In this document: positions 4,273-49,539 of the stretch, one piece after another
Layout of the letters: every line of letters starts with the position of its first letter
Numbering within the stretch: the first letter of the stretch is position 1
Source: Isosphaera pallida ATCC 43644
Lineage (GTDB): Bacteria; Planctomycetota; Planctomycetia; Isosphaerales; Isosphaeraceae
Assembly (NCBI RefSeq): GCF_000186345.1
Contig: NC_014962.1
Span: 1,302,001 to 1,366,000, forward strand
Direction: 5' to 3'
DNA length: 64,000 nucleotides
Made by a program: the position numbers and the translations under genes
Notes under the pieces: model-generated
Told to the model about the DNA's origin: nothing
What the model saw: only the letters and a program-made list of their open reading frames with translations
Databases searched by the model: none

Positions 4273-5478
4273 TCATTGTTTGGATATCGTGGAGGAGGTC
4301 GCCAGCTTGGTGAGATCGCCGCCCCGAAGCGCCGCGTCGATCAATTCAGGCAGACGATTGGGGGTGCAGCCAAAGCAGGGAATCTTCAACGCCGAGAGCT
4401 TGCGAGCCAGTCGCTCATCGTAGCTGGGAACGCCGGAATCCGACAACGCGAGCAAACAAATCACCTTGACACCGGACGCGACCATTTCGCCCAGACGACG
4501 GACCAGTTGCGCTTCGTTGCCGCCTTCAAAGAGATCAGTGATGAGCAGAAGGATGGTTTTCTTGGGTTCGTTGATGAACTGCTCGCAATAGGCGACCGAC
4601 TTGTTGATGTTGGTCCCGCCGCCGAGTTGGACGCCGAAGAGCATCTCCACCGGGTCGTTGCCGCATTGCTCGGTGAGATCGACCACCTCGGTGTCGAAGG
4701 CGATCACATGGGTGTCGAGCGCTGGCAAACTGGCGAAGATCGAGCCAGTGACCGCGCCGTACACCACTGAGTCGGCCATCGAGCCGCTTTGGTCCATATC
4801 GACGATCACGGTCCAGGCGTTGGACTTCCGAGCGCGCGAATAGAAGTAGACTCGTTCGGGGATGATGGTGGCGAGGTCGGGGTTGTAGTTCTTGAGGTTG
4901 CGGCCAATCGTCCATTTCCAGTCGATCGCCGAGGCGCTGGGCATGGGAGTGTGTTCCTTGCGGTTGAGCGCGCCCATGACCGCTTGACGGATCGACTGCT
5001 CGAACTTTTTCTTGATCTCCTCGACGACCGCGCGGACGACCATGCGGGCGGTCTCTTTGGAGCGTTCGGGGATGCGTCCCCTCAGCGACATGAGGGTGCC
5101 GACGAGTTGGACGTTCGGCTGCACGCTTTTGAGCATTTCGGGTTCAAATAGCAGTTGCTTGAGTCCCTTGCGTTCAATGGCGTCGGCCTGAATGACCGAG
5201 ACGACATCCTCCTTGAAGTAGGCGCGAATGTCGCCCAACCACTTGGCCAAGCGGGGGGCCGAGCCGCCTAGACCGGCGGAACGTTGGCCCGAGCCGGATT
5301 CGAGATCGCCGGTTTCGTCGTAAATCGCACTGAGCGCCTGGTCCATCTCGGCGTCCATCCCGCTCAGACACGCGCCTGGACCCATTGCTTCCAGCGATGC
5401 TTGCGACTCCTTGCCCAGAATCAAACGCCAGCGACGCAGTTGTTCGGGATCGAACAACGATGAGGATGAGGTAGCCAT
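4273..5478 (-). CDS. VWA-domain protein of MoxR/SWIM cassette (YehP-like)
   Basis: 401 residues, the last gene of the leftward five-gene cassette. A helical N-terminal half (to about 190) precedes a von Willebrand A domain. The MIDAS is intact: DMDQSGSM at about 227-234 supplies the D-x-S-x-S, GGGTNI the threonine, and LLITDLFEGG the second aspartate. VWA proteins next to MoxR ATPases usually act as metal-dependent adaptor or substrate-binding partners of the AAA+ ring. The start ATG 5478 follows CCAGGT; a TTG at 5499 is also possible. It lies 60 bp after the DUF5682 gene. In E. coli the related YehP is encoded beside YehL (MoxR), YehM (DUF5682) and YehQ (SWIM). The biochemical function is unknown. 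Confidence 0.85.
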   Translation of the reverse strand: MATSSSSLFDPEQLRRWRLILGKESQASLEAMGPGACLSGMDAEMDQALSAIYDETGDLESGSGQRSAGLGGSAPRLAKWLGDIRAYFKEDVVSVIQADAIERKGLKQLLFEPEMLKSVQPNVQLVGTLMSLRGRIPERSKETARMVVRAVVEEIKKKFEQSIRQAVMGALNRKEHTPMPSASAIDWKWTIGRNLKNYNPDLATIIPERVYFYSRARKSNAWTVIVDMDQSGSMADSVVYGAVTGSIFASLPALDTHVIAFDTEVVDLTEQCGNDPVEMLFGVQLGGGTNINKSVAYCEQFINEPKKTILLLITDLFEGGNEAQLVRRLGEMVASGVKVICLLALSDSGVPSYDERLARKLSALKIPCFGCTPNRLPELIDAALRGGDLTKLATSSTISKQ

Positions 5479-5538
5479 GAGTGCGACCTGGTGGCTCAAG
5501 GGATTGGGGAAGCGTTGGGGAGGACACGCGCTGGAGGC

Positions 5539-7908
5539 TCAAAGGTCGTCAAAGTCGAGTTCGTTGAGTTCGGAGAGGGCTTGTTGCTCGGCTTCGGTCA
5601 GGGGAGTTTCCAGCGTTTCGGCGGCGAGGTCGGGGTTGAGTCCCCAGAGTTCACCGAGGTTTTCGCAGATTATCCGCTTTTGATGAGGCGAGAAGCTGCC
5701 AAAGGCGCGACGCAAAAACACCAGGGCGCGCTTGAACTGGTCGGGGTCGAGGGTGTTTACATAGTCGGCCAGTTCGGCCCAGAGGGCCTGACGCGCCAGC
5801 AGCGCCGCGCGGTTGCGTTGAGCCAAGCCCTCGAACCAGCCGGCCCCCAGATCGGCGGGCACGCCGGGCGAGAGACGCCGAGACACCTCGCGGGCCAGTT
5901 GGTCGTTGGGAATCAATCCCCGTTCCAACAGCACCGCGTAGGCGTAGCCTGAAAGGGTGGGGTTGCGATCGTCGGCGTCCGAAAGCGCTTGCAGTTGGCT
6001 TAACCACAATTCGACCTCGACCCGGTCGTGATGATCCAGCGCCACTCGGTTGAGCGCGTCGATCGCGGGCATCAGGGTTTGGGCGGCCTGCTGGTCGCAA
6101 TTGGCCGAGGAAGGCAAGGCCAATGCGCCCTGCACGAACAGGGCTTCCATGAGGGGGAGCAGCGAAGTCGCGTCGAACTTGCGCACGTCGCCGTAGCGAA
6201 TCACCTGACTCAGCTCTGCCGCGGCGCGCGCGATTGAACCGAAGTCGGAACTGACTGCCGCGAGTTCCTGAAGCCGCGACCGAGCGTGATCCAGCGAGCC
6301 GTGAAGTCCGCACAGGCAGGCGTCGTTGACCAGGTCGGCCGCCTGGGCGATCTCCTGACATTCCTCGAGCTGAGACTTGATCTTGGAAGCGGTCGCCAAT
6401 TCGACCGTTTCGCCCATCAGGACCGCTTCGACCAATGAAATCTCGCTTTCAGGACTCCACTGGACTTTCCAGACCTCCTTCCACGTGGCGTCCCGCTGGG
6501 TTGAGCGGACTGGCTCGGCGAAGCCGACCCCCAGCACCCGCAGGCGATGCAGAAAGGTGGAGCGGTTCAGGTCGAGATAGGCCGCCTCGGCCGATTTGAC
6601 CTGGCGGTTCTCTCGCAAGTCGAGTTCCAACACCTGGGCGACGGTGGTTTTGTATTTGTCCAGCCTCAAACGAGTGAGCATACGTTCGAAGTCCTCCTGG
6701 ATCGAGGTTCGGCCCACCCCTTTGGGAAGATGACCGATCGCCGTACCGACATCGACGTTCATGAGCGCTTCGGCCACCGACGAGGCTTCGCCGTGACCCA
6801 TTATGGTCACGGCGGCGTCGCGCAGGTCGGCCAAAATCGGCGCGGAGCCGCCCTTGAGCGCGGCGAGGGTACGGGCCAGGCGGACCCCTTCGATCACTTC
6901 GGCGGTGGAGCGGTGGGTGCCACTTTGGCGAAGGCGGCGGACCACTTCGGTCAGATAACGAGCCGGCAGATGATCGAGGCCGCCGGAGTTGAGCAGATCC
7001 CACATCATCTCGAAGTAGGCGGGGGCTCGATTTCCCGCGCCGTAGCCCGATTGCGAAGAAAGACGGAAATAAGAATAAGGCATCAAGGTCAATTTGCTAG
7101 AGCGGCGGGGCAGCGACTTGAGTTCGTCGTCGGTCATCGCCGGATGATCGCCAGTGAGAACCGGCGCATGGAAAGCTCCCACCACCGCCACGATCTTGTC
7201 GGGCGGAACTTGGTCGGCCAGGGTTTCCTCGATGCGACGCCTCATATAGGCTTCGCGCACCAGGTTTTCAGCCCGCCAGGGGGTTGGGTCCGGTTCGTCA
7301 CGCAACGCCTTGCCCAGTTCAAGGGCGGCGAGGCGATAGGCTTCGTCATTGAGATTTTGTTCAAAGTGGCGTTCCCAATAGTCGTCATAAGAGGATTCGC
7401 CCATCGCTTGGGCCACGCGGTCGTAGATTGAGCGGCGGGGTTCGGGACGCCAAGCGACGGGGTCATGGGTTCCCTCGTCGTCGGGATCGCTTTGGGGTTG
7501 CCTTCCGCCGAGAGGTTGAGGGGAACCGTTGGCAGGGTTGTCCGCCCGAATTCGGCTTAGTTGCCGCTGAATGTCGGCTTCCTGGAGTCCAAGAACAATG
7601 TCGGAGGGGAGGTCGATGAATTCGACGCGGGCGTTGTTTTCAACAGCCCAACGCATCGCTTGATATTCGGGGCTGTAGGAAGCGAACGGGGTGACGATGG
7701 TGCGGACCGGGACGGCGTCGGTGTAGGCGAGGATCGCCACGGGGGGTCGGGTGACCGAATGGGTCAGGTCGGGGATGAGGTCGTTGGCGTCGGCGATTCC
7801 TTCGATCAGCACGACGTAAGGCCGGAGTTGATCGAGAAAACGGACCACATGCCACGCGCCACCGGGCGAAAGGTGGCGCACCCCGAACACCGGGATGGTC
7901 CAACTCAC
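5539..7908 (-). CDS. DUF5682-family protein (YehM-like), TIKI/TraB-like N-terminus
   Basis: 789 residues, cytoplasmic by appearance (no signal peptide or membrane span). The N-terminus has GVRHLSPGGAWHVV (His12), VVLIEGIADAND (Glu36) and, at about 242-250, VVGAFHAPV (His247). This G-x-x-H / E / GxxH arrangement resembles the TIKI/TraB/ChaN/erythromycin-esterase superfamily, so a metal-dependent hydrolase role is plausible but is my inference. The remaining 500 residues are helical, without a recognised catalytic motif. The start is GTG 7908, whose GTGA overlaps the stop of the MoxR gene by 4 bp, implying translational coupling and probably matched stoichiometry with the ATPase. A charged, low-complexity insertion (about residues 125-155) interrupts the N-terminal domain. 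Confidence 0.8.
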   Translation of the reverse strand: MSWTIPVFGVRHLSPGGAWHVVRFLDQLRPYVVLIEGIADANDLIPDLTHSVTRPPVAILAYTDAVPVRTIVTPFASYSPEYQAMRWAVENNARVEFIDLPSDIVLGLQEADIQRQLSRIRADNPANGSPQPLGGRQPQSDPDDEGTHDPVAWRPEPRRSIYDRVAQAMGESSYDDYWERHFEQNLNDEAYRLAALELGKALRDEPDPTPWRAENLVREAYMRRRIEETLADQVPPDKIVAVVGAFHAPVLTGDHPAMTDDELKSLPRRSSKLTLMPYSYFRLSSQSGYGAGNRAPAYFEMMWDLLNSGGLDHLPARYLTEVVRRLRQSGTHRSTAEVIEGVRLARTLAALKGGSAPILADLRDAAVTIMGHGEASSVAEALMNVDVGTAIGHLPKGVGRTSIQEDFERMLTRLRLDKYKTTVAQVLELDLRENRQVKSAEAAYLDLNRSTFLHRLRVLGVGFAEPVRSTQRDATWKEVWKVQWSPESEISLVEAVLMGETVELATASKIKSQLEECQEIAQAADLVNDACLCGLHGSLDHARSRLQELAAVSSDFGSIARAAAELSQVIRYGDVRKFDATSLLPLMEALFVQGALALPSSANCDQQAAQTLMPAIDALNRVALDHHDRVEVELWLSQLQALSDADDRNPTLSGYAYAVLLERGLIPNDQLAREVSRRLSPGVPADLGAGWFEGLAQRNRAALLARQALWAELADYVNTLDPDQFKRALVFLRRAFGSFSPHQKRIICENLGELWGLNPDLAAETLETPLTEAEQQALSELNELDFDDL

Positions 7909-9080
7909 GAGTGTTGCTCCACGCAGGCGTTGTAAAGGGCGCGCCAGTCCGACCCCCGCTTCTTGAGGACGTTGTTGAGGTATTCGGACCAGACCACCTG
8001 ATCCTTCTCCTCATCCTTGACAATTGCTCCCTGCAAGCCGGCGGCCAGATCGTGGGCGGTGACCTCGCCGTTGCCGAAGTTGGCCGCTAGGGCCATGCCG
8101 TTGGCCAACACCGAGATCGCCTCGGCGGTCGAGAGGACGCCGGAGGGGGTCTTGAGTTTATTCTTGCCATCCAGGGTTTGGCCGGAGCGCAGTTCGCGGA
8201 AGATGGTCACCACTTGGGTGACGGCCTCCTCGGAGGGGGGAGCGGCCTTGAGCTCCAAGTTGGTGCCGAGTTCCTGAACCCGTTTGCGGACGATCGCCAC
8301 TTCAGTTTCCAGAGTCGCGGGGGTGGGCAGCACGATCGTGTTGAAGCGTCGTTTGAGCGCTGCTGACATGTCGTTGACCCCGCGATCGCGGGTGTTGGCG
8401 GTGGCGATGACCGAGAATCCCTTGACGGCGGGCACCTCGGTGAGCAGTTCAGGGATCGACAATCGCTTTTCGGACAGGAGCGAAATCAGAGCGTCCTGGA
8501 CCTCAGCGGCGCAGCGAGTGATCTCTTCGAAACGAGCGAGGGTGCCAGTTTCCATCGCGCGGAAGATCGGGCTTTTGATGAGCGCGTCATGACTGGGGCC
8601 CCGCGCGATGAGCATCGCGTAGTTCCAGGTGTAGCGGATTTGTTCCTCAGTGGTGCCGGCAGTGCCCTGGACGACCAAGGTACTATCTCCGGTGATGGCT
8701 GCGGCGAGGTGTTCGGAGAGCCACGACTTGGCGGTACCCGGCTCACCGACCAGCAGGAGGGCGCGGTCGGTGGCGAGGGTGGCGATGGCGATTTCGACGA
8801 GGCGGCGATGGCCGAGATATTTGGGGGAAATCGTCAACGATCCGGCCTTGCCGCCACAAATGTAGGTGGCGACTGCGCGGGCCGACATCCGCCAACCCGG
8901 AGGACGGTCATACGTGTCATGCTTGATGAGCGCGTCAAGTTCCTCGGCGTAGAGTAATTCAGCCGGGGCGCGGAGGATCCCACCGTTGGGGTTGATGGTC
9001 GTGGTGGCGGCATTGGCCGAGGAGTTGGCGGCAGGCGATTCGTCGTGGGTGATGTGGTCGTCGGTCTTCTTTTTGGCCAT
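7905..9080 (-). CDS. MoxR-type AAA+ ATPase (YehL-like)
   Basis: 391 residues. The Walker A is GEPGTAKS at about 112-119, Walker B is LARFEEITR near 181-189, sensor 1 is ATANTRDRG near 226-234, and the arginine-finger region is AALKRRFN near 240-247. The GxxGxAKS Walker A and the clade pattern mark the MoxR group that pairs with VWA and SWIM proteins. Such ATPases form rings that remodel or activate partner complexes. I chose ATG 9080 (MAKKKTDDH); the frame is open further upstream to 9320, but that extension is Pro-rich and unlike the family. The stop overlaps the DUF5682 start by 4 bp, while 167 bp separate it from the HEAT gene upstream. Confidence 0.88.
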   Translation of the reverse strand: MAKKKTDDHITHDESPAANSSANAATTTINPNGGILRAPAELLYAEELDALIKHDTYDRPPGWRMSARAVATYICGGKAGSLTISPKYLGHRRLVEIAIATLATDRALLLVGEPGTAKSWLSEHLAAAITGDSTLVVQGTAGTTEEQIRYTWNYAMLIARGPSHDALIKSPIFRAMETGTLARFEEITRCAAEVQDALISLLSEKRLSIPELLTEVPAVKGFSVIATANTRDRGVNDMSAALKRRFNTIVLPTPATLETEVAIVRKRVQELGTNLELKAAPPSEEAVTQVVTIFRELRSGQTLDGKNKLKTPSGVLSTAEAISVLANGMALAANFGNGEVTAHDLAAGLQGAIVKDEEKDQVVWSEYLNNVLKKRGSDWRALYNACVEQHS

Positions 9081-9247
9081 GAGGGGGGACTCGTTGCCGT
9101 TCAAGTGAAGTGGGGGAGGGGTTCCAGGAGCAATTCCGGCAGTCGGAGGACTTTGATTAGGGACGGTGCCGGCGTGGCTCGCCAACTGACACGCGGAGGG
9201 TACGACCCATCCTCGTTGGAGTTTGAGTTCAAACGTCGTCCGGTGGC

Positions 9248-11107
9248 TTAGGTTTGGGCGGGCGTGTCGAGCTCGGGATCCCACGGGCGGGCGCGAAGCT
9301 CCTTGATCGCCTCGACCCACTGCTGTTGCGTATAACCCTTCAACTTGGGGACCATCTCCTCCAAACGCGACAGCGACGCCTTAGGCAGCTGGGCGACCAA
9401 AGATGGCAACCACCAAATATGATAATATTGATATTTGCCTGTAACCATTTTCTCGCTGGTGGCGAGGATCGCGTCGGTGGCCAACGGGTGTCGAAACGTC
9501 ACGAGCGCGTGAACGATCAGATACAGAGCATTGGGGTCTTTGGCGGTCGAGATTGTTTCTTGAAACGTGGTTGCCAAGAAGGCGTCGAGTCCTGGGTGGC
9601 CGATCTTGCCGACCCGAACGACGGCCCCGAGGTGTTGGTGGGTCAAGGCGAGGTCAAGCCAACGCGGGTCGAATTGGTCATCCAAACTCTCTTCATCATG
9701 GCGGTCCCACCACGAACCGGAGCGATGGCCGCCCAACGTTTCAAGAATGACCAACGCCTTGGCGGAGTTGGATTTGGCGTTGACCTTGGCCTTGCGGGCG
9801 GGGTGCTTGGTTTCCTCAGGCGTGGTGGCGGTCAGGTAGGGGGAGAACAGGTCGAAGAGCCTCGCAGGAGACAGGCTTGTGATGCCTGCCTTGAAACATC
9901 TGGCGAGCTTGTCGGCCTCGAATTCGGCGTGGGCCTGGGCGAGTGCGGTTTGGGTCGCGGTTGAGAAGGTGGCCATCGCCTGGATGATGGCGTCACACAA
10001 GTCGTTGCCCGAGTAAGGCGTGCCCTTGAGTTTGATCCACTGATCCCGTTTCGGGAACAGATTTAACAAAAACTGCTCGGCGGCGGTTGAGCCAGTGTCG
10101 TTGAGTGCTTGAAGCCCATGGGTGATTCGTTCGACGCGCGCGCTGATCTCCTTCTTGTCGTCGAGTTGGGCCAGGCCGTCGAGATCGGTTTGGATTTGAC
10201 GGATCAGGAAAACGACGAGGTCCTCGCGTTTGGATTCTTGAATGATGTCGGCGACGGTTTGGTAGTCCTTGCTCTGAAGCGCGGTTTGGATCAGGCTGGG
10301 CACTACGGGGTCGGTATGCTTGACCAGACCGGCGAAGGCGGCGGCGCGGACCTCTTGATTGCGGGCGCGGGCTTGCTCGACCAAGCGGGCGAGATCATCG
10401 GGACCGTCGCCCAGGCAGGCGAGGGCGGCGAGTTTGACCTCCTTGCTTCCGTGTTCAAGTGCGTCCAACACGAGGGGGCGGGCGGTCTCGGGGTCGAGTC
10501 GATGGATCAGTCTCAAGCGACGAGCGTTGACCGTTTTCCCCTGGGGATCGTAATCGGCCCTGAGGAGGGGCACGATCGCCTTGCCGTAGAGGGGCAGAAC
10601 TTTTTTCTCCATGATCTCGGCGATTTCGGCGTAGGGATCGTCGAGCGCCTTGAGGGCGGGGGTGACCAACCGCGGGTCGCGGAACAGACCACGCTCGTGG
10701 GCTTCCTGAATTTGGGCGACCCGACCCGAGCCAGTGCCGGTGAGGGCGTCAAGTAGCGGCTTGAGGGTCCGAGCGCTGGCCTGAATACCGATGGATCCAT
10801 GTTGTTCCAGGTGAATCGACTCGATCGGTTCAAGTTGGCCCTCGACCCCAGTGGTCCCCTGGGTGAACAAAATGGCGGTCACCAGCGCGGCGAGGTCCAG
10901 CAGCGCCTCGGCGGTTTGGCTCTCTTCGCCTTCAACGACCCGGCGGGCCGCGTCGGCGACCTTGGCGAGGACCGGGGCTTGGGTTCCGGCCAGTTCCAAC
11001 GGCGCGATCAGCTTTTTGAGTCGGAAATCGCCGTGAGCCACCATCGCCCCGGCCACCGCCAGCCGTTTGGTTTCGTCGTACACCTGGTTGAGAATGGCGA
11101 TGCTCAT
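9248..11107 (-). CDS. HEAT/ARM-repeat-like helical protein in MoxR cassette
   Basis: 619 residues, entirely helical, with no signal peptide or catalytic motif. Between about residues 170 and 310 the sequence shows repeated helix pairs of HEAT type, for example RPLVLDALEHGSKEVKLAAL and EVRAAAFAGLVKHTDPVV. The C-terminal third contains KHPARKAKVNAKSNSAKALV and ends in a tail rich in Glu, Pro and Asp. It sits as second gene of the cassette, between SWIM and MoxR. In E. coli the equivalent neighbourhood carries the DUF4132 protein YehI, so this may be the scaffold or substrate receptor of the complex; homology to DUF4132 was not established. ATG 11107 is preceded by GGAAG; an in-frame extension to 11146 is unlikely. 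Confidence 0.7.
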   Translation of the reverse strand: MSIAILNQVYDETKRLAVAGAMVAHGDFRLKKLIAPLELAGTQAPVLAKVADAARRVVEGEESQTAEALLDLAALVTAILFTQGTTGVEGQLEPIESIHLEQHGSIGIQASARTLKPLLDALTGTGSGRVAQIQEAHERGLFRDPRLVTPALKALDDPYAEIAEIMEKKVLPLYGKAIVPLLRADYDPQGKTVNARRLRLIHRLDPETARPLVLDALEHGSKEVKLAALACLGDGPDDLARLVEQARARNQEVRAAAFAGLVKHTDPVVPSLIQTALQSKDYQTVADIIQESKREDLVVFLIRQIQTDLDGLAQLDDKKEISARVERITHGLQALNDTGSTAAEQFLLNLFPKRDQWIKLKGTPYSGNDLCDAIIQAMATFSTATQTALAQAHAEFEADKLARCFKAGITSLSPARLFDLFSPYLTATTPEETKHPARKAKVNAKSNSAKALVILETLGGHRSGSWWDRHDEESLDDQFDPRWLDLALTHQHLGAVVRVGKIGHPGLDAFLATTFQETISTAKDPNALYLIVHALVTFRHPLATDAILATSEKMVTGKYQYYHIWWLPSLVAQLPKASLSRLEEMVPKLKGYTQQQWVEAIKELRARPWDPELDTPAQT

Positions 11108-11189
11108 CGGAACACACTTCCGCGTGGATGGGGTTGGCGAGATCAAAGAAGCTCGGTTTGAAACGGCAAGCGATCTTATGTTGTTGGAG

Positions 11190-12641
11190 TTAGAAGGTCA
11201 GACGCAGGATGGTCTCTGGGGTGACGATGCTCAGCGGTTTGATACGCAGCGTGCGGGCGTCCAGATCGTGACGGAAACGGGCGATCATGACTTGATCAGC
11301 CAGGCAAGCGGGGGGAAGCAAGGGGAGGAGGTGGCAGCTGGGGGGGTCGTCGTCGATACCCGCATCGCTAAGGATCAGGCGTTGGCCCTGGGCATCCTCA
11401 GCCACGACTTGGCCGCCCACTTTGCCCAGACGCGCGAACCGCAGCGCGTGGATGGGAGTGCGGTCGGCGAGGGGACTTTTGAGCGAGGCTTTGACCTCCT
11501 TGATCAGGGTGGCGAAATCCTCACGGGCGTGGCGACGGATCGTCGCCAGGTCGTCGGATTGGAGGGGGCGGGGGGTCATCCCGTCCCAGCGAATGCGGGG
11601 ATTGACGCCGCCGGGGTAGACGCAGAGTTCTTTGACACACGCGACTTGGAAAAAACTGTCCTCGCTCTTGATGTAACGTGCTGCCTTGTAGGGCCGGATC
11701 GTCTGGGTGACACGGATTTTGCCGTCGCCTAGCGACATCCACACTCCGCTGTCGATGAATTCCTGACGGGCCGGATCGTCCTGAGCGCGGAAGGCGAGTT
11801 GGACGAGTTCCACGTCGGTTTCGACCAGACCGGCCTCCCGGAGTTCGGCGAGTTGCCAGGCGTGACCGAGCCAGGCAGCGATCGCCGAGTCGGTCGGCAG
11901 GGACAAGTTAGGGTCGTCCAAACGCTGCTTGAGGTAGGCGCGACCCTGTTTGACCAGGGCGTGGAGCCGGGCGAGGTGTTCCAACGCCTCGGACTGGATC
12001 GCCTCGGCCCGCGCGGGCGGGAGGTCGCCCACCTGGCCGTGGTCGTCGGTGAACAGACCCAGATAGCTCAACAACGCCCCCCGCGCACCAGGTAAATAAG
12101 CGTCGCCCAAGCGGGCGGCCTGAGTCTTGATCTCGGAGGCTTGCTGGGAGGTCAGATTACCCACCCCCAGGCGGATCAAGTCGCGGGTAATTTGTTCGAG
12201 GAGGTCGATGCCATCCAGCTGCGCCTCAATCTTCTTGACCAGCGCCGCCTTGTTGACCTTTTTGGGCTTGGCCGGCTCGGTCTCCTTCCTCTGGGCCTTC
12301 TCCTGGAGCTTGGCCCGCTTCTCCTGGAGGGCGGCAGGCGGCTCGGCGATGGTGAACGGTTGCTTCATCACGTAGGCGAACATCAAACCCACGCAATGCT
12401 TGCAGGGAAACTGGCGACTCGGACAGGAGCAACGGTAGGTCGGTTGGTCGGGCCGGATGAAGTCGCACGAGCATTGATAGGGGGTCTTACCACTCCCCTT
12501 GCATTCGCCAAAGATCAAAGTTCGATCTTCCGTGATGTTCAAGGTCACAAATTGACCTTTCAACACCAAGGACCGTCCGTTTTGGGATGTGTCCGGATTC
12601 GGAGCAGATGAGTTTACGAACGCCTCGTCGATGGTGATCAT
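11190..12641 (-). CDS. SWIM zinc-finger protein (YehQ-like), first gene of MoxR cassette
   Basis: 483 residues. The SWIM motif CxCx(6)CxH is present as CSCPSRQFPCKH (Cys71, Cys73, Cys80, His82), with an additional CSC at 57-59 just before it. SWIM domains bind zinc and are used for DNA or protein contacts. A Lys/Glu/Ala-rich charged linker follows (about 103-135), then a helical and mixed C-terminal domain unique to this family. The start ATG 12641 has GGAG and GGGTGGAG immediately upstream, a strong ribosome-binding site. A TTGACA-N17-TATCGT promoter lies about 100 bp upstream, so this gene opens the five-gene operon. No enzymatic motif is visible. Confidence 0.85.
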   Translation of the reverse strand: MITIDEAFVNSSAPNPDTSQNGRSLVLKGQFVTLNITEDRTLIFGECKGSGKTPYQCSCDFIRPDQPTYRCSCPSRQFPCKHCVGLMFAYVMKQPFTIAEPPAALQEKRAKLQEKAQRKETEPAKPKKVNKAALVKKIEAQLDGIDLLEQITRDLIRLGVGNLTSQQASEIKTQAARLGDAYLPGARGALLSYLGLFTDDHGQVGDLPPARAEAIQSEALEHLARLHALVKQGRAYLKQRLDDPNLSLPTDSAIAAWLGHAWQLAELREAGLVETDVELVQLAFRAQDDPARQEFIDSGVWMSLGDGKIRVTQTIRPYKAARYIKSEDSFFQVACVKELCVYPGGVNPRIRWDGMTPRPLQSDDLATIRRHAREDFATLIKEVKASLKSPLADRTPIHALRFARLGKVGGQVVAEDAQGQRLILSDAGIDDDPPSCHLLPLLPPACLADQVMIARFRHDLDARTLRIKPLSIVTPETILRLTF

Positions 12642-12900: not shown

Positions 12901-13737
12901 TTAGGGTCGTTCTCCCGCGCGGAGTCGGGTGGCGATGGCGTCGAGAATGGGTTCGAGGGTGGCGACCGATTCGATGACGTAATGCGCGCCGGCGCGGGCG
13001 AGGTTGTCAGTGGCTTGGGCGTGGAGGGTTTGGCGTTGGGTGGGGTCGAGGGCGTCAAGTTCGGCGGCGGAGAGGCCGGTTTCGTTGCCGGTGAGGGCAA
13101 CGCCGACGGTCCAGCAACCGGCGTTGAGTCCTTCCTCGATGTCGGCGCGGGTGTCGCCGACCTTGACGACCGCTTCAACCGGCCAGGCGCGGAGGCGTTT
13201 CATCGCCTCGAAGACCATCCAGGGTGCGGGGCGTCCAGCGGGGACTTCCGAAATGGTGACCGAACCGCCGGGATCGACCGCGTAGCCTTGGGCGGCGGCG
13301 AGTGGTTCGACCACGTCCATCATGGTTCGGTCGTAACCCGTGGTGCCGCCGAGCTTCAAACCGCGTTCCCGGAGACTGCCGATCGTGCTGGCCACGCCGG
13401 GGATGAGTTCCGAATGGTTGGGCAACACCTCGTTTTGCAAAGGGATGAACCGAGCGTAAAGGGTTTCTACGTCGGTCTCGGTCCAATCGCGCCCCTTGAC
13501 CGCCCGCCACGCGGCGGTTACTTCAGCGAGTTTGAGAATTTCACGGATGTGGTCCTTCTTGGCCATCCCCATCGGCCCCCGTGCTTGAGTGACGGTGATG
13601 GGGACCCCGTCGGCCTCGAAGGTGGCCTGGAAGGCCGCCACCGGAGCGCGAGAGCCGTGATCGACAGTGGTGCCCGCCCAGTCGAATATCACGGCGGACA
13701 GCGGACCCCGATAAGTTCGTCGAAAATAAAAATTCAT
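12901..13737 (-). CDS. phnX: Phosphonoacetaldehyde hydrolase (phosphonatase)
   Basis: 278 residues, HAD superfamily. It hydrolyses the C-P bond of phosphonoacetaldehyde to acetaldehyde and phosphate, the second step of 2-aminoethylphosphonate degradation. The HAD nucleophile motif FDWAGTTVDHG (Asp19) is intact, with the Ala/Gly-Thr variant typical of phosphonatase. PMGMAKKDHI carries the Schiff-base lysine (Lys60). TTGYDRTMM and KVGDTRADIEEG supply HAD motifs II to IV. It starts 54 bp after the stop of phnW and is surely co-transcribed. ATG 13737 is the first start in the frame and fits the family length. Confidence 0.92.
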   Translation of the reverse strand: MNFYFRRTYRGPLSAVIFDWAGTTVDHGSRAPVAAFQATFEADGVPITVTQARGPMGMAKKDHIREILKLAEVTAAWRAVKGRDWTETDVETLYARFIPLQNEVLPNHSELIPGVASTIGSLRERGLKLGGTTGYDRTMMDVVEPLAAAQGYAVDPGGSVTISEVPAGRPAPWMVFEAMKRLRAWPVEAVVKVGDTRADIEEGLNAGCWTVGVALTGNETGLSAAELDALDPTQRQTLHAQATDNLARAGAHYVIESVATLEPILDAIATRLRAGERP

Positions 13738-13791
13738 GCGAACGACTTCATCTCAAGAGCATGACGATGGGGGGGGAACTACGAAGCTGGT

Positions 13792-15084
13792 TTACGAGGG
13801 ATCGACGGCTGCGGGGATTGGCACGGGGACGCCTAGGGTGGTGAGGACTTCCTCGATGGCGTAGACCAGGGCGCGGAGGTCAGCAGGGAAGAGGCGTCCG
13901 ATGTTGCCGATGCGGAAGCAGGCGCGTTGGGTGAGTTTGCCGGGATAGATGACATGCCCGCGGCGGCTGAGCATAGCGGCGAACTGGGCGAAGTCGAAGG
14001 CGGGGTGGGCGGGCTCGGGGAAGGCGGTGATGATCGGAGCTTGGATCGACGGGTTCAGAATTGGATGGAATCCCAGAGCGGCCATTCCTTCGACCAGCAC
14101 CCGATGGTTGAGCAGATAGCGGCGCAAGCGTCCGGCCACTCCACCTTCGAGTTGGAGTTCGACCAGCGCTTGGCGTAAGGCGAGGATGGCGTGGGTGGGG
14201 GGGGTAAAGCGGAACTGGCCGTCGGTTTCCAACCCACGCCATTGGGCGTGCAGGTCTAGGCTGAGGCTGCGTGCGTGTGCTTTGCAAGACTCGATCGCCT
14301 CGCGGCGGGCCACAACCACACCGAAGCCGGGCACTCCCTCCAGACACTTGTTGGGCGAGGTCACCAGGAAGTCAATTCCGGTGGCGTTCAAGTCAACCGC
14401 CAGCGCGCCGAAGCCGCTCATGGAGTCCAGCAAAAATCGGGTCGGGCGGTTCTTGAGCGCCTGAGCGATCGGCTCGAACGGATTGAGCAGACCGGTGGAG
14501 GTCTCGCAGTGGACGATGCCGAACAGAACCGCGTCGGGGTGATGGTTCAACTCCAGCATCACCTGGTTGGGATCGACCGCTTCGGTCTCTTCAAATTCCA
14601 AGGCGACAACCCGCAGACCCTGAGTGCGGGCGATGTCCACCAGACGACGACCATACGCGCCATTGACCGCGATGACAACCTTGTCTCCAAGCGCGGTGGT
14701 GCTGGTGATCACAGACTCCAGGGCGAAGGTGCCGGCCCCTTGCATCAAGACCACAGTATGGGTGTCGCGCCCGACTCCCGCTACTTCGAGCAAGCCGTCG
14801 CGGACTTCGGCGACGATCTTGAGGAACTCCTCGTCGCGCGAGCCCATGTCGTGGAGCATCGCTTGCTTGACGGTGGCGCTGGTGGTAAGCGGACCAGGGG
14901 TATGAAGGATCTTGTCCCGCGCTGGAGGCGGATGAATCCCAACCCCGCCGGCGAGCGATGTCATGGTTTTGTAAGGGGCCTGTCGGCTCGATTCGGCGGA
15001 AGGAGCGTTGCTCGAAGGGGGTTCACGGTCCAGGCGCGTGGGCGCGGTGGTCGTGGCAAGTCCGGGGAGGGAAGGCTGGTTCAT
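13792..15084 (-). CDS. phnW: 2-aminoethylphosphonate--pyruvate transaminase
   Basis: 430 residues, a PLP-dependent class V aminotransferase that converts 2-aminoethylphosphonate and pyruvate to phosphonoacetaldehyde and alanine. Family landmarks are LHTPGPLTTSATVKQAML, LMQGAGTFALESVI, the aspartate region FLLDSMSGFGAL and the PLP lysine in TSPNKCLEGVPGFG. The C-terminal domain ends with CFRIGNIGRLF. It forms a two-gene unit with phnX. From ATG 15084 the protein has about 60 extra N-terminal residues, Pro/Thr/Ser-rich; ATG 14964 would give 390 residues, closer to the family. No phosphonate transporter or regulator gene is adjacent. Confidence 0.9.
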   Translation of the reverse strand: MNQPSLPGLATTTAPTRLDREPPSSNAPSAESSRQAPYKTMTSLAGGVGIHPPPARDKILHTPGPLTTSATVKQAMLHDMGSRDEEFLKIVAEVRDGLLEVAGVGRDTHTVVLMQGAGTFALESVITSTTALGDKVVIAVNGAYGRRLVDIARTQGLRVVALEFEETEAVDPNQVMLELNHHPDAVLFGIVHCETSTGLLNPFEPIAQALKNRPTRFLLDSMSGFGALAVDLNATGIDFLVTSPNKCLEGVPGFGVVVARREAIESCKAHARSLSLDLHAQWRGLETDGQFRFTPPTHAILALRQALVELQLEGGVAGRLRRYLLNHRVLVEGMAALGFHPILNPSIQAPIITAFPEPAHPAFDFAQFAAMLSRRGHVIYPGKLTQRACFRIGNIGRLFPADLRALVYAIEEVLTTLGVPVPIPAAVDPS

Positions 15085-15583
15085 GGGCGGACCTGAGCGA
15101 CCTGCTGGTCGCGTCGAAAACAAGAAGAATCGAACCCGTTGAACAACCGGCGGAGAGGGCGAAACAGTTCGAACCCGGAATCAAGGTCGGTCATCCGAGC
15201 CGCTTTGGTCGCAATCACGACGTGTCGAACAATGACAACACCCCGTCCAAGATCCGCATCATGGCGAACCCGAGCGGCTTGGTCCAGAGGGTGTCGCGCG
15301 TCAAATCAACCAAACTTCAAGCCGCTCCGCGAACCGGCTCCCAAGAATGGAGATTGAGCAAAAGAATCCATGACGTTGGTGTGAGCGAGGGGGTTCTACC
15401 TAGCACGTCGTTCCCCGACTGACTTTCGGGAGACCGTGGTTCGGTGGGATCAGTCTCTTCGATGGGTTGCACCGGCTGCGATAAGAAGCTACGATCATTG
15501 CACACGCGTTTCCGATGGAGATGGCGAGCGGCGGTTGAGTGGTCGAAGGGGCCAGCGAATCGTCAAGTTCGCCATGCTATTGA
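15085..15583. other. Divergent intergenic region, phnW / ilvB
   Basis: No gene is supported. The region holds a candidate ilvB promoter (15467-15495) and should contain the leftward phnWX promoter, which I could not identify. No leader peptide rich in branched-chain codons or T-box-like structure is evident. Confidence 0.4.
15467..15495 (+). promoter_or_regulatory. Candidate promoter for acetolactate synthase gene
   Basis: TTGCAC at 15467-15472 is followed after 17 bp by TACGAT at 15490-15495. Both boxes are near consensus and point toward the ATG at 15584, giving a leader of roughly 80 nt. Confidence 0.35.
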
Positions 15584-45866: not shown

Positions 45867-48800
45867 GCGCGTCTCACGATTGCGATCCGACTTCGCCACA
45901 GTTGACTGAGCAACAGGCGGAGGCGGTCAAGTATCGCGCCGGCCACCTGGCATTGTCCTCAGGGGCAGGCTGCGGCAAAACCACAGTGTTGAGCGAGCGA
46001 CTCATCGCCGAATATCGGGAACGGTTGCTTCATACCGATTTCCATGACCTCAGACGGGTGGTGGCGGTCACCTTTACCGACGCAGCGGCCCGCGAGTTGC
46101 TGAATCGGATTCGGCATTGCGCTTGGAAGTCAGTCGACTCGAAAACGAACGACCGTTTGGCTTGCGTTTGGAAGAACATGCTCCGGGGTCTAGATGCAGC
46201 ACCAATCGGCACGTTTCACTCCTTCTGCGGGCGATTGATTCGGCGTCACGCTCTCGCGTTGGGAATCGACCCAGCCTTTACCATTGCGAATGAAACGCTG
46301 ACACCTACTCTCAAGAGTCGGGCCGTCGTTCGATGTTTGCGGCATCTTCTCACCAATAATGACGATGATTTGCAAATCTTTGCGGTTGAAGAGGGGTTGC
46401 CGGCGGTTCGAGCCATGCTTGAAGAGATTCTGGACGACCGCGACGCCGTTGACCTGGAGGCACTGAGTCGCAAAAATTCCACCGCGTTGGTTCAGAAATG
46501 GACGCGAATTCATCGTGAGCAGTTCCTCCCTCAAGAACTTCGGGAACTCAAACGTGATCTGATGAGGCGTTTGAACGTGCTGGCTGATCTTCAGCCCGAC
46601 GATTTCAACCCAACGGCCCGAGACAATTGGTTGATTCTCCATGAGAGCATGGAGAGTCTGGAACGATTTTCTCACAAGTCCGAGACCGGGGATCCGGCCG
46701 ATTCCCTGAATTGGAACGCCCTCGGCAACGTCCTTTCCCGGATGCGCGAGGCGGCCAAAATTGGGAATAAAAAAGGATGGGCTAACGAGGAAATCAAGAA
46801 GCGTGTCAAAGATGTCTTTGAGGGGATTCGCAAGCGCATCCTCGATTTCCAAGAGAAATTGGAGCTTGCTCGGGATTCTCTGCAAGAAGACGCGGAACGT
46901 TCCATCCGGCTGGCGAGACTGGCGTGGAAAACGGTTCAAGAATATCAACGGATCAAACGTGAAGAAGGAGTGCTGGATTACGACGATTTGTTGACCACAG
47001 CGCTCGTCCTTTTGCACCAGGATTCCCGCTTGGCTGCCCAGGTGGCGCGCAGTGTCGATCTGGTGCTGGTTGACGAGTTTCAGGATACCGACCCGGTCCA
47101 GGCTCGTTTACTGGAGGCGTTCGAGCAACATGCTGGCGAGGCGTTCCGTTTGATGCTGGTGGGCGATCCCAAGCAGTCGATTTATCGTTTTCGACGCGCT
47201 CAACCCCAGGTCTTCCAGTCATTCCGCAATCACTTCCCGGATCAGGGCCGCATGGTGTTGACCGGCAACAACCGCTCAATTCCTGAGCTGCTCGATGTCT
47301 TCAACCACCTCTTCGAGGAGTTGCTGGAAGGGCCTGAAGACGCTCTGACTCACGGTCCGGTGACCCCGCCGCCCGGTTCTCTTGATCAGTATCGGGATCG
47401 GTGCCGGGGCAGCGAGCCTCCTCCCGGTCCCTTCACGCTGTTGTGGGCCAAGGTGGATCCCAAGACCCCGGTGGAACAAGCGCGGCGCGCTGAGGCCCGC
47501 GTGCTGGCAACGTGGCTCCGAACCCGTTTGGATAACGGCTGGCCGATTCGCAGCTCGAAAACCCCCAACGCCCCGGTGGTGTGGGCGAAACCGGACGACG
47601 TCGTGCTACTGTTGCGCACCCTGAACAACTCATCGATCTACGAGCGGGAACTGGTGCATGTTGGTCTGGAAGTGCATATCGTCGGCGGCGCGGCCTTTTT
47701 CACCCAGCCCGAAGTCCTCGACTTGATCAACCTGCTGGCCGCCATCGAAGATCCCGCCGACGCCACGGCGTTGGCGGCGACCTTGCGCGGTCCAATTTTC
47801 GGTCTGACCGACGCGTCGCTGTTGGCGGTCACGTTGGTCGAGCCGGGGAATCCCAGCCGTCGCGATTTATTACGCGGCTTCGCCACCGGCGAACCCGGCG
47901 ATTGGCTCGACGACACCCAACGGTCCGCCCTCCGTCGCGCTCGTGTGTTGCTGGAACGTTGGCGCGACCTCAAGGATCACCTTAAGGTGGGCGACCTCAT
48001 GGAGCGGGTTTTGTTCGAGTCAGGTTACGAAGCCGCGTTGACCGCCCAACCCTTGGGGGATCGGAGGGTGGCGAACGTGCGGAAGTTGATTCGTCAAGCA
48101 CGTCGGTTCGAGGCCGGGGGCGGCGGACGCCTCACTCTGGCCGACTGGGTTGCGCGGTTGCGCGCCGACTTGCGCAAGCCCCCCCGCGAGGATCAGGCCG
48201 TCACCGGCGACGAGGGAAGCGGACGGGTGCGGCTGATGACCATCCACCAGGCGAAAGGTTTGGAATTTCCGATCGTCGTCCTCCCCGATCTTGATCGTGG
48301 TCTCGTTTCGTGTTTTCAAAAGAACTCCTACGTGATTCGACCCGACTTGGGACTCGTCGTCAAACCCCCCGTCGATCGGGAGGACTCCAGGGACGGCTTG
48401 ACTATTGCCAAGCTCGCTGGGGAGATGGAGTCCCGCGACGATCACGCCGAGGCGAGACGCTTGTTTTACGTCGCCGCCACCCGCGCGCGCGACGCCTTGG
48501 TCCTCTCGGCGGCCTATGACCCCGACGAGGAACCCAACTCGCCGGCGATGCAGTTGCTCGCCGAGCGCTATGATTGTCGAACCGGCCAACCCCGCTGCGG
48601 GATCGCAAACCAAAAGCCAACCGCGACCGTCGCCGCCCAGGTGGTCAATCTCCCAGACCAGGAGTCTAACCCAACTCGTTCGCCCCTGGCCCGTCCCCCT
48701 TCGTCACCGCCTCAGGTCGCTTTAGTTACCCGCGTTGTGCAAGAGGCGTTGAGTGATGCGGGAAGCTCCGACGCTCCGACCGACGCCTTGGCGCGGAACG

Positions 48801-49507
48801 AGAACCCTAACACCTTGGATTCGCTCTCCGCCCAACCAATGTGGTTATTGACGCAGGAAGATGTTCGTCTTCCTCTTCGAGTTGACCTTGATCCGTCCAA
48901 CAAACCCGATTTGGATCCGATTCGCGCTCTTGTGGATCGACTGCTGAGGGCAGTTTTCGCCGACCCCGAGGGGATGTTTGCGACCGGGTCGTCTTGGCCC
49001 AGCGAACCGCGTCGCGTCCTGATCGACCGCGCGGCTCGGCGGCTGGGTTTGGCTTCTCCCCGGGTCGTTGATTGGGTCACTCAGATTCTCGACGACGACA
49101 CCTGCGCCGAATTGGCCACCGAACTGAGCCAAGCAGTGATCGTGCACCGAATGGTGAGGTGGTCCAACATCATGGGGGATCCCTCCCGACCGACGCATCT
49201 TGTCTACGGATTCGCGGACTTCGTGTTGACCGACTCCAACGGTCGAACAACACTTCTCAACGTCGTCATGGACGATCATGTCCGCGAACATCTTCGCATG
49301 GCGTTGGCGGTGGAGCCGTTGCAACGACAATTGGGAGTGCGGATCGACCGGACGACCGCGTTTAGTCCGACCCGCAAGGCGGGACGCTTCTGGGATCCAC
49401 CGCCGATCATGGTGGCCGGCACGATCCCTCCTCATTCGACTCGGTCCGAGAGCGAGGCTAAAGGGGAGGGATCATCATCAATGAAAGAGATCAGGCGTGC
49501 GACGTAA
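45863..49507 (+). CDS. addA: AddA-like UvrD-family helicase with degenerate nuclease domain
   Basis: 1214 residues, the ATP-driven helicase partner of AddB. The Walker A is SGAGCGKTT (GAGCGKT at 34-40), motif Ia VVAVTFTDAAARELLNRI, motif II VLVDEFQDTDPVQA near 405, motif III LVGDPKQSIYRFRRAQP, motif V MTIHQAKGLEFPIVVLPD and motif VI FYVAATRARDALVLSA. The C-terminal domain is unusual: YGFADFVLTD retains one acidic residue, but the expected DYK motif is replaced by LLNVVMDD and no clear QxxxY follows. The nuclease is therefore probably dead, leaving AddB as the only nuclease. The start overlaps addB by 4 bp (ATGA). Confidence 0.87.
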   Translation: MSASHDCDPTSPQLTEQQAEAVKYRAGHLALSSGAGCGKTTVLSERLIAEYRERLLHTDFHDLRRVVAVTFTDAAARELLNRIRHCAWKSVDSKTNDRLACVWKNMLRGLDAAPIGTFHSFCGRLIRRHALALGIDPAFTIANETLTPTLKSRAVVRCLRHLLTNNDDDLQIFAVEEGLPAVRAMLEEILDDRDAVDLEALSRKNSTALVQKWTRIHREQFLPQELRELKRDLMRRLNVLADLQPDDFNPTARDNWLILHESMESLERFSHKSETGDPADSLNWNALGNVLSRMREAAKIGNKKGWANEEIKKRVKDVFEGIRKRILDFQEKLELARDSLQEDAERSIRLARLAWKTVQEYQRIKREEGVLDYDDLLTTALVLLHQDSRLAAQVARSVDLVLVDEFQDTDPVQARLLEAFEQHAGEAFRLMLVGDPKQSIYRFRRAQPQVFQSFRNHFPDQGRMVLTGNNRSIPELLDVFNHLFEELLEGPEDALTHGPVTPPPGSLDQYRDRCRGSEPPPGPFTLLWAKVDPKTPVEQARRAEARVLATWLRTRLDNGWPIRSSKTPNAPVVWAKPDDVVLLLRTLNNSSIYERELVHVGLEVHIVGGAAFFTQPEVLDLINLLAAIEDPADATALAATLRGPIFGLTDASLLAVTLVEPGNPSRRDLLRGFATGEPGDWLDDTQRSALRRARVLLERWRDLKDHLKVGDLMERVLFESGYEAALTAQPLGDRRVANVRKLIRQARRFEAGGGGRLTLADWVARLRADLRKPPREDQAVTGDEGSGRVRLMTIHQAKGLEFPIVVLPDLDRGLVSCFQKNSYVIRPDLGLVVKPPVDREDSRDGLTIAKLAGEMESRDDHAEARRLFYVAATRARDALVLSAAYDPDEEPNSPAMQLLAERYDCRTGQPRCGIANQKPTATVAAQVVNLPDQESNPTRSPLARPPSSPPQVALVTRVVQEALSDAGSSDAPTDALARNENPNTLDSLSAQPMWLLTQEDVRLPLRVDLDPSNKPDLDPIRALVDRLLRAVFADPEGMFATGSSWPSEPRRVLIDRAARRLGLASPRVVDWVTQILDDDTCAELATELSQAVIVHRMVRWSNIMGDPSRPTHLVYGFADFVLTDSNGRTTLLNVVMDDHVREHLRMALAVEPLQRQLGVRIDRTTAFSPTRKAGRFWDPPPIMVAGTIPPHSTRSESEAKGEGSSSMKEIRRAT

Positions 49508-49539
49508 CGCCACAAGCGGGGGGCGGTGCTTGGTCTCAA

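Follow-up and report, generated by a model that had tools for sequence, protein, structure and literature searches.

A cassette of five consecutive minus-strand genes, encoding in order SWIM, HEAT, MoxR, DUF5682 and CoxE-type VWA proteins, spans positions 4273-12641 of the window, the 64,000-nt stretch of DNA that was analysed and within which positions are counted (the host genome comprises 5.5 Mb in two contigs). All five genes of the original prediction were recovered by ORF reading and Pfam, as were the GTGA sequence at 7905-7908, where the start of the DUF5682 gene overlaps the MoxR stop by four bases, and the intact VWA MIDAS (DQSGS, T, D). The features are as follows.

4273-5478, minus strand: VWA_CoxE co-chaperone protein (Pfam VWA_CoxE, E 1e-46; intact MIDAS)
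5539-7908, minus strand: DUF5682 protein of the YehM family (Pfam DUF5682, E 2e-155, residues 21-754)
7039-7908, minus strand: predicted Tiki-fold domain, DUF5682 residues 1-290 (AF2 model and invariant residues)
7873-7875, 7801-7803 and 7612-7614, minus strand: codons of the invariant DUF5682 residues H12, E36 and D99, respectively (alignment)
7255-7257 and 7168-7170, minus strand: codons of the invariant DUF5682 residues R218 and H247, respectively (alignment)
7905-9080, minus strand: MoxR-type AAA+ ATPase (Pfam AAA_5, E 1.5e-37; Walker A)
9248-11107, minus strand: HEAT-repeat alpha-solenoid protein (Pfam HEAT_2, E 8e-8)
11190-12641, minus strand: SWIM zinc-finger protein (signature CSCPSRQFPCKH; Pfam SWIM, 15.8 bits, under the cut-off of 19.6 bits)

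The longest ORFs are probably too long for three of the genes, for which internal ATG starts are favoured: VWA likely begins at ATG 5478 (longest ORF from TTG 5499), MoxR at ATG 9080 (longest ORF from GTG 9320), and HEAT at ATG 11107 (longest ORF from TTG 11146). The GC3 of the cassette equals that of the neighbouring genes and thus gives no indication that the cassette was acquired very recently. Immediately upstream of the SWIM gene on the same strand, phosphonoacetaldehyde hydrolase-like and 2-aminoethylphosphonate transaminase-like genes were recognized by eye at 12901-15123; they likely belong to a phosphonate pathway unrelated to the cassette. The window proteins have the intact Walker A (GEPGTAKS) and intact MIDAS of a MoxR-VWA chaperone pair, and these motifs are kept in 103/104 MoxR homologues and, as D.SGSM, in 100/101 VWA homologues; the Pfam bpMoxR match among the five window proteins lies below its cut-off. 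The SWIM signature CxC(6)CxH is conserved in 20/20 aligned homologues, and the CxC...CxH form occurs in 84 of the 86 SWIM matches of at least 350 aa, the remaining two ORFs beginning at a contig end. The slot that the HEAT protein occupies in the window is filled elsewhere by DUF5691 or DUF4132 proteins, and homology between HEAT and DUF5691 is not claimed, since their comparison was equivocal (probability 37%, E 4e-4).

The co-location of homologues of the five genes in other genomes was checked by a DUF5682 neighbourhood survey of 111 other loci, comprising 80 GTDB contigs, 20 regions from planctomycetes and 11 annotated records (E. coli K-12 plus 10 matches in a plasmid collection). The seed proteins for their annotation came from the window, E. 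coli, Deinococcus, Allorhizobium and a handful of further loci. Because DUF5682 was the entry point to every locus, the survey covers DUF5682-containing cassettes, and counts were restricted to the 75 loci in which DUF5682 is flanked on both sides by 6.5 kb or more (the window itself, with too short a left flank, falls outside this set). The outcome favours a unit: MoxR and VWA were each present in 73/75 loci, SWIM in 68/75, a HEAT, DUF5691 or DUF4132 protein as the fifth part in 69/75, and the complete five-part set in 67/75. The cassette ranges from E. coli to Firmicutes, Bacteroidota, Cyanobacteria and Planctomycetes, and the exact gene order of the window also occurs in Paenibacillus, Bacillus, Lachnospiraceae, Fusobacterium and three other planctomycetes, a recurrence across phyla that is far beyond chance. 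DUF5682-VWA fusions were found in Paenibacillus sp. 32O-W, Streptomyces atratus and one planctomycete, and SWIM-DUF5691 fusions in several lineages. Pairwise distance matrices of the five proteins from 44 loci correlate at 0.81-0.97 for all ten pairs (0/999 permutations as high), shared species descent accounting for part of this correlation, and the trees of DUF5682, MoxR and VWA each set HEAT-type cassettes apart from DUF5691-type ones. The five genes are a genuine, widely conserved unit. A recurring sixth gene was sought in the cassette flanks and none was found.

Several loci depart from the common arrangement. DUF5682-VWA single frames lie at L062:9887-13450, L018:8941-12708 and L034:7848-11486, in three distant lineages, and loci L029, L036 and L062 are without SWIM and solenoid genes. 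In two planctomycete DUF5682 loci (L039 and L040), no MoxR or VWA was detected within about 8 kb, possibly reflecting stand-alone use of DUF5682 or very diverged partners, and a tandem pair of HEAT-protein genes lies inside the cassette at L066:5208-8897 and L072:4723-8698. The window VWA protein clusters with Priestia/Bacillus VWA proteins (support 0.83), and the window MoxR and DUF5682 proteins cluster with the planctomycete loci L031-L033 (support 0.999 and 1.0, respectively); as these placements disagree, there are hints that the VWA gene, or the VWA of its relatives, may have had a different history from MoxR and DUF5682.

The original prediction also drew a comparison with E. coli, which is right: yehL-yehM-yehP-yehQ encode homologous MoxR, DUF5682, VWA and SWIM proteins side by side. 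The gene order in E. coli is, however, MoxR-DUF5682-VWA-SWIM, with SWIM last, whereas SWIM is first in the window, and the large neighbours are DUF4132/WGR proteins in E. coli and a HEAT protein in the window. The window has adjacent MoxR, DUF5682 and VWA genes on one strand together with a SWIM partner gene, and its copy is a YehLMPQ-type cassette in variant form, with a HEAT protein. The cassette was matched in 5301/5426 complete E. coli genomes, and at least 80% of its 6.3 kb was held by 5162/5426, with a median of one copy that is almost always chromosomal. One 393-kb E. coli plasmid (CP088875.1, locus L019) carries the chromosomal yeh cassette and its neighbours at 345141-364898, with an ISEc53 transposase gene alongside. 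Neighbours of the E. coli cassette include yehF/yehH/yehI, the molR genes. A YehL subfamily of MoxR ATPases has been named (PMC3893208). A historical link of molR to molybdate use (Lee 1990) is cited in PMC4245954, which also describes a synthetic growth defect of molR with lepA, and Deinococcus DUF4132/WGR genes are induced on DdrO depletion (PMC8533742). The molybdate and lepA links of molR and the DdrO-linked induction are leads, short of proof. A literature search on DUF5682, yehM/P/Q and molR returned passing mentions at most, and DUF5682 was named in none of the papers searched.

The architecture of DUF5682 combines an N-terminal predicted Tiki-superfamily domain (residues 1-290) with a C-terminal alpha-solenoid. 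When the full-length protein was compared with the PDB, the matches were swamped by the helical repeat part, and the N-terminal domain was therefore refolded alone. The resulting AF2 model of residues 1-310 (pLDDT 87) gave ciliate complex IV chains as top structural matches (Z 9.8-10.2), followed by ChaN (2g5g, Z 7.9), HopBA1 (5t09, Z 7.5), EreC (Z 6.2 and 6.0) and BcR135 (Z 5.6); the first unrelated match, a phosphatase (Z 5.4), ranked after BcR135, and RRSP matched at Z 5.3, 5.2 and 4.8. The ciliate complex IV is reported to include a TraB-family subunit, which may differ from the matched chain (PMC10060162). As the Foldseek E-values are not significant (best 0.18), the case for the fold is made by the motifs and by the accumulation of members of one superfamily among the top-ranked matches. 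The common alpha/beta core fold of the superfamily is present in the predicted model, and residues 1-290 are accordingly assigned, as a prediction, to the Tiki-superfamily fold. ChaN and TraB/PrgY/GumN were among the leading other families in a Pfam scan of 54 DUF5682 members, as weak second matches in 5/54 (best 4.6e-4) and 2/54 (best 0.002), respectively. Similarly, the TraB model PF01963 gave one match only in 40 genomes, below its curated cut-off, and this match (G036:C313:48916-49035) falls inside a DUF5682 gene (47233-49524). Searches of sequence profiles against PDB chains returned nothing relevant, and planctomycete ChaN proteins sought for a profile test were not found.

The N-terminal 290 residues of DUF5682 carry the motifs GxRH, LIEGPxD, DLP, R[ED]xxM and GAxH, and H12, E36, D99, E183, R203, R218 and H247 are invariant in 111/111 DUF5682 homologues, the invariance of H12 being independent only in the window, planctomycete, plasmid and E. 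coli loci because the GTDB loci were picked by a pattern containing R11-H12, which leaves the invariance of the other residues unaffected. Essential residues of the Tiki superfamily are a His-Glu pair, a conserved basic residue (Arg) and another His (PMC6254334), and H12, E36, R218 and H247 are the predicted counterparts of this His/Glu/Arg/His active site. The His-Glu spacing is 24 residues in DUF5682 vs. 28 in the superfamily, and the Arg-His spacing is 29 in both. Profile alignments by hhalign were not significant but placed R218, E219, M222 and H247 in register with planctomycete Ere proteins (E 0.14) and H247 in register with E. coli YbaP (E 0.011), whereas two unrelated control profiles aligned to DUF5682 elsewhere than at the family residues. 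The first superfamily Glu, that of ExH in the 2His/2Glu set, is absent in DUF5682, which has GxRH instead. A G-x-x-H form of the first-His motif is found in Tiki itself, so that not every superfamily member needs the ExH Glu. Relatives in the superfamily include peptidases, esterases and the haem-binding ChaN, and since haem binding or inactivity is found in some proteins of this fold, the fold alone falls short of proving hydrolysis.

Taken together, we give an even chance to the reading that the five genes encode one ATP-driven complex in which DUF5682 is a Tiki-superfamily hydrolase served by MoxR-VWA, with a conditional processing role, the cassette being, as part of the same reading, the planctomycete/Firmicute version of E. 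coli YehL-YehM-YehP-YehQ. In MoxR-VWA pairs, the VWA MIDAS captures a client peptide and ATP drives remodelling (PMC7159879). By analogy, the SWIM and solenoid proteins would select and present a client, the VWA protein would bind it through its MIDAS, and ATP hydrolysis by MoxR would remodel the client or the complex and give access to the DUF5682 site, the MoxR-VWA chaperone thereby loading or gating a Tiki-type hydrolase. The variation of the solenoid slot (HEAT, DUF5691 or DUF4132) between lineages fits client choice, and the earlier proposal of VWA and SWIM proteins as target recruiters is plausible from family knowledge. Such a machine would serve conditional processing, maturation or quality control and would not be a weapon dedicated to phage defence. 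The original prediction is supported in part. Its view of one machine is well supported by co-location, fusions and congruent trees, the fusions speaking indirectly for a physical complex of the products. Its view of DUF5682 as the effector gains a concrete basis in the predicted fold and the invariant His/Glu/Arg/His set, and the conflict role that it had suggested is not supported.

Among the alternatives, a metal-cofactor maturation machine is unlikely but fares best; modelled on CoxD-CoxE, NorQ-NorD and CbbQ-CbbO, it would have MoxR-VWA insert or activate a metal centre and DUF5682 bind metal or haem with no hydrolysis. The CoxE type of the window VWA protein (Pfam), the predicted fold shared with haem-binding ChaN and the position of the E. 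coli cassette beside yehF/yehH/yehI, with the molybdate tie of molR, all point this way, but no metalloenzyme gene recurs beside the cassette in the flank survey, and an invariant His/Glu/Arg/His set is the feature retained by catalytic members. The yehM mutation reported in copper-evolved E. coli is likewise in its favour, but is one among many (PMC12409786). Improbable, and ranked lower, is a ternary MoxR-VWA system for conflict or phage defence in which DUF5682 would be the toxic effector. In its favour, a conflict role has been predicted for several MoxR-VWA systems (PMC7159879), planctomycetes carry the cassette patchily (30/294 genomes), and the window SWIM and MoxR proteins match the PADLOC candidate PDC-S62 (E 4e-4) and mad8, respectively, both weakly; however, the single, chromosomal and near-universal E. 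coli cassette belongs to the core of that species, unlike patchy defence systems, and the third component stays the same instead of diversifying. The 97 nearest flanking ORFs are mostly transporters, regulators and metabolic enzymes by Pfam, with scattered PADLOC matches (commonest mad3 with 5 and AriA with 3, as raw counts), and the Kaur 2020 survey of MoxR-VWA conflict systems makes no mention of SWIM or yeh genes. No VMAP, iSTAND, related third component or variable effector domain was found by Pfam in the five window proteins, the viral contigs searched yielded no relative, and the sole phage-database match is an unverified 14-kb faecal scaffold. This scaffold (MT835988.1, L134), labelled 'bacteriophage', holds a full DUF5682 relative with 45% identity and is probably bacterial DNA. 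That the five genes have separate functions and stay adjacent through a common promoter is very improbable given the fusions, the congruent trees and a membership that stays constant across phyla while the flanks differ.

Of the new points, the predicted assignment of DUF5682 to the Tiki superfamily is the most useful; with the named likely active-site residues and the five-part co-travel, it turns a gene list into something experimentally addressable and offers the long-unexplained yehLMPQ set of the E. coli core a testable activity. If the preferred reading of a chaperone-served hydrolase is true, a MoxR chaperone is wired to a Tiki-superfamily enzyme, linking two families with poorly understood bacterial roles. 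With slightly less than even confidence, the cassette may represent a new class of AAA+-gated hydrolase, in which MoxR-VWA is permanently paired with a Tiki-superfamily enzyme and SWIM and interchangeable solenoid adaptors choose the clients. CoxD-CoxE and RavA-ViaA likewise pair a MoxR ATPase with a VWA co-chaperone, and the window VWA protein matches the CoxE Pfam model, but those systems lack DUF5682, SWIM and solenoid proteins and act on known enzyme complexes. The MoxR-vWA ternary conflict systems (VMAP, iSTAND; Kaur 2020, 2021) share the MoxR-VWA core and an extra component, which in the window is the constant DUF5682 with its predicted Tiki fold. Similarly, the Tiki superfamily (ChaN, TraB/GumN, EreA/EreC, HopBA1, RRSP and Tiki) shares with DUF5682 the predicted fold, a GxxH-type first His, a Glu on the next strand, R[DE]xxM and a final His in register, whereas DUF5682 differs in its helical extension of ~480 residues, in having no ExH first Glu and in its tie to MoxR-VWA.
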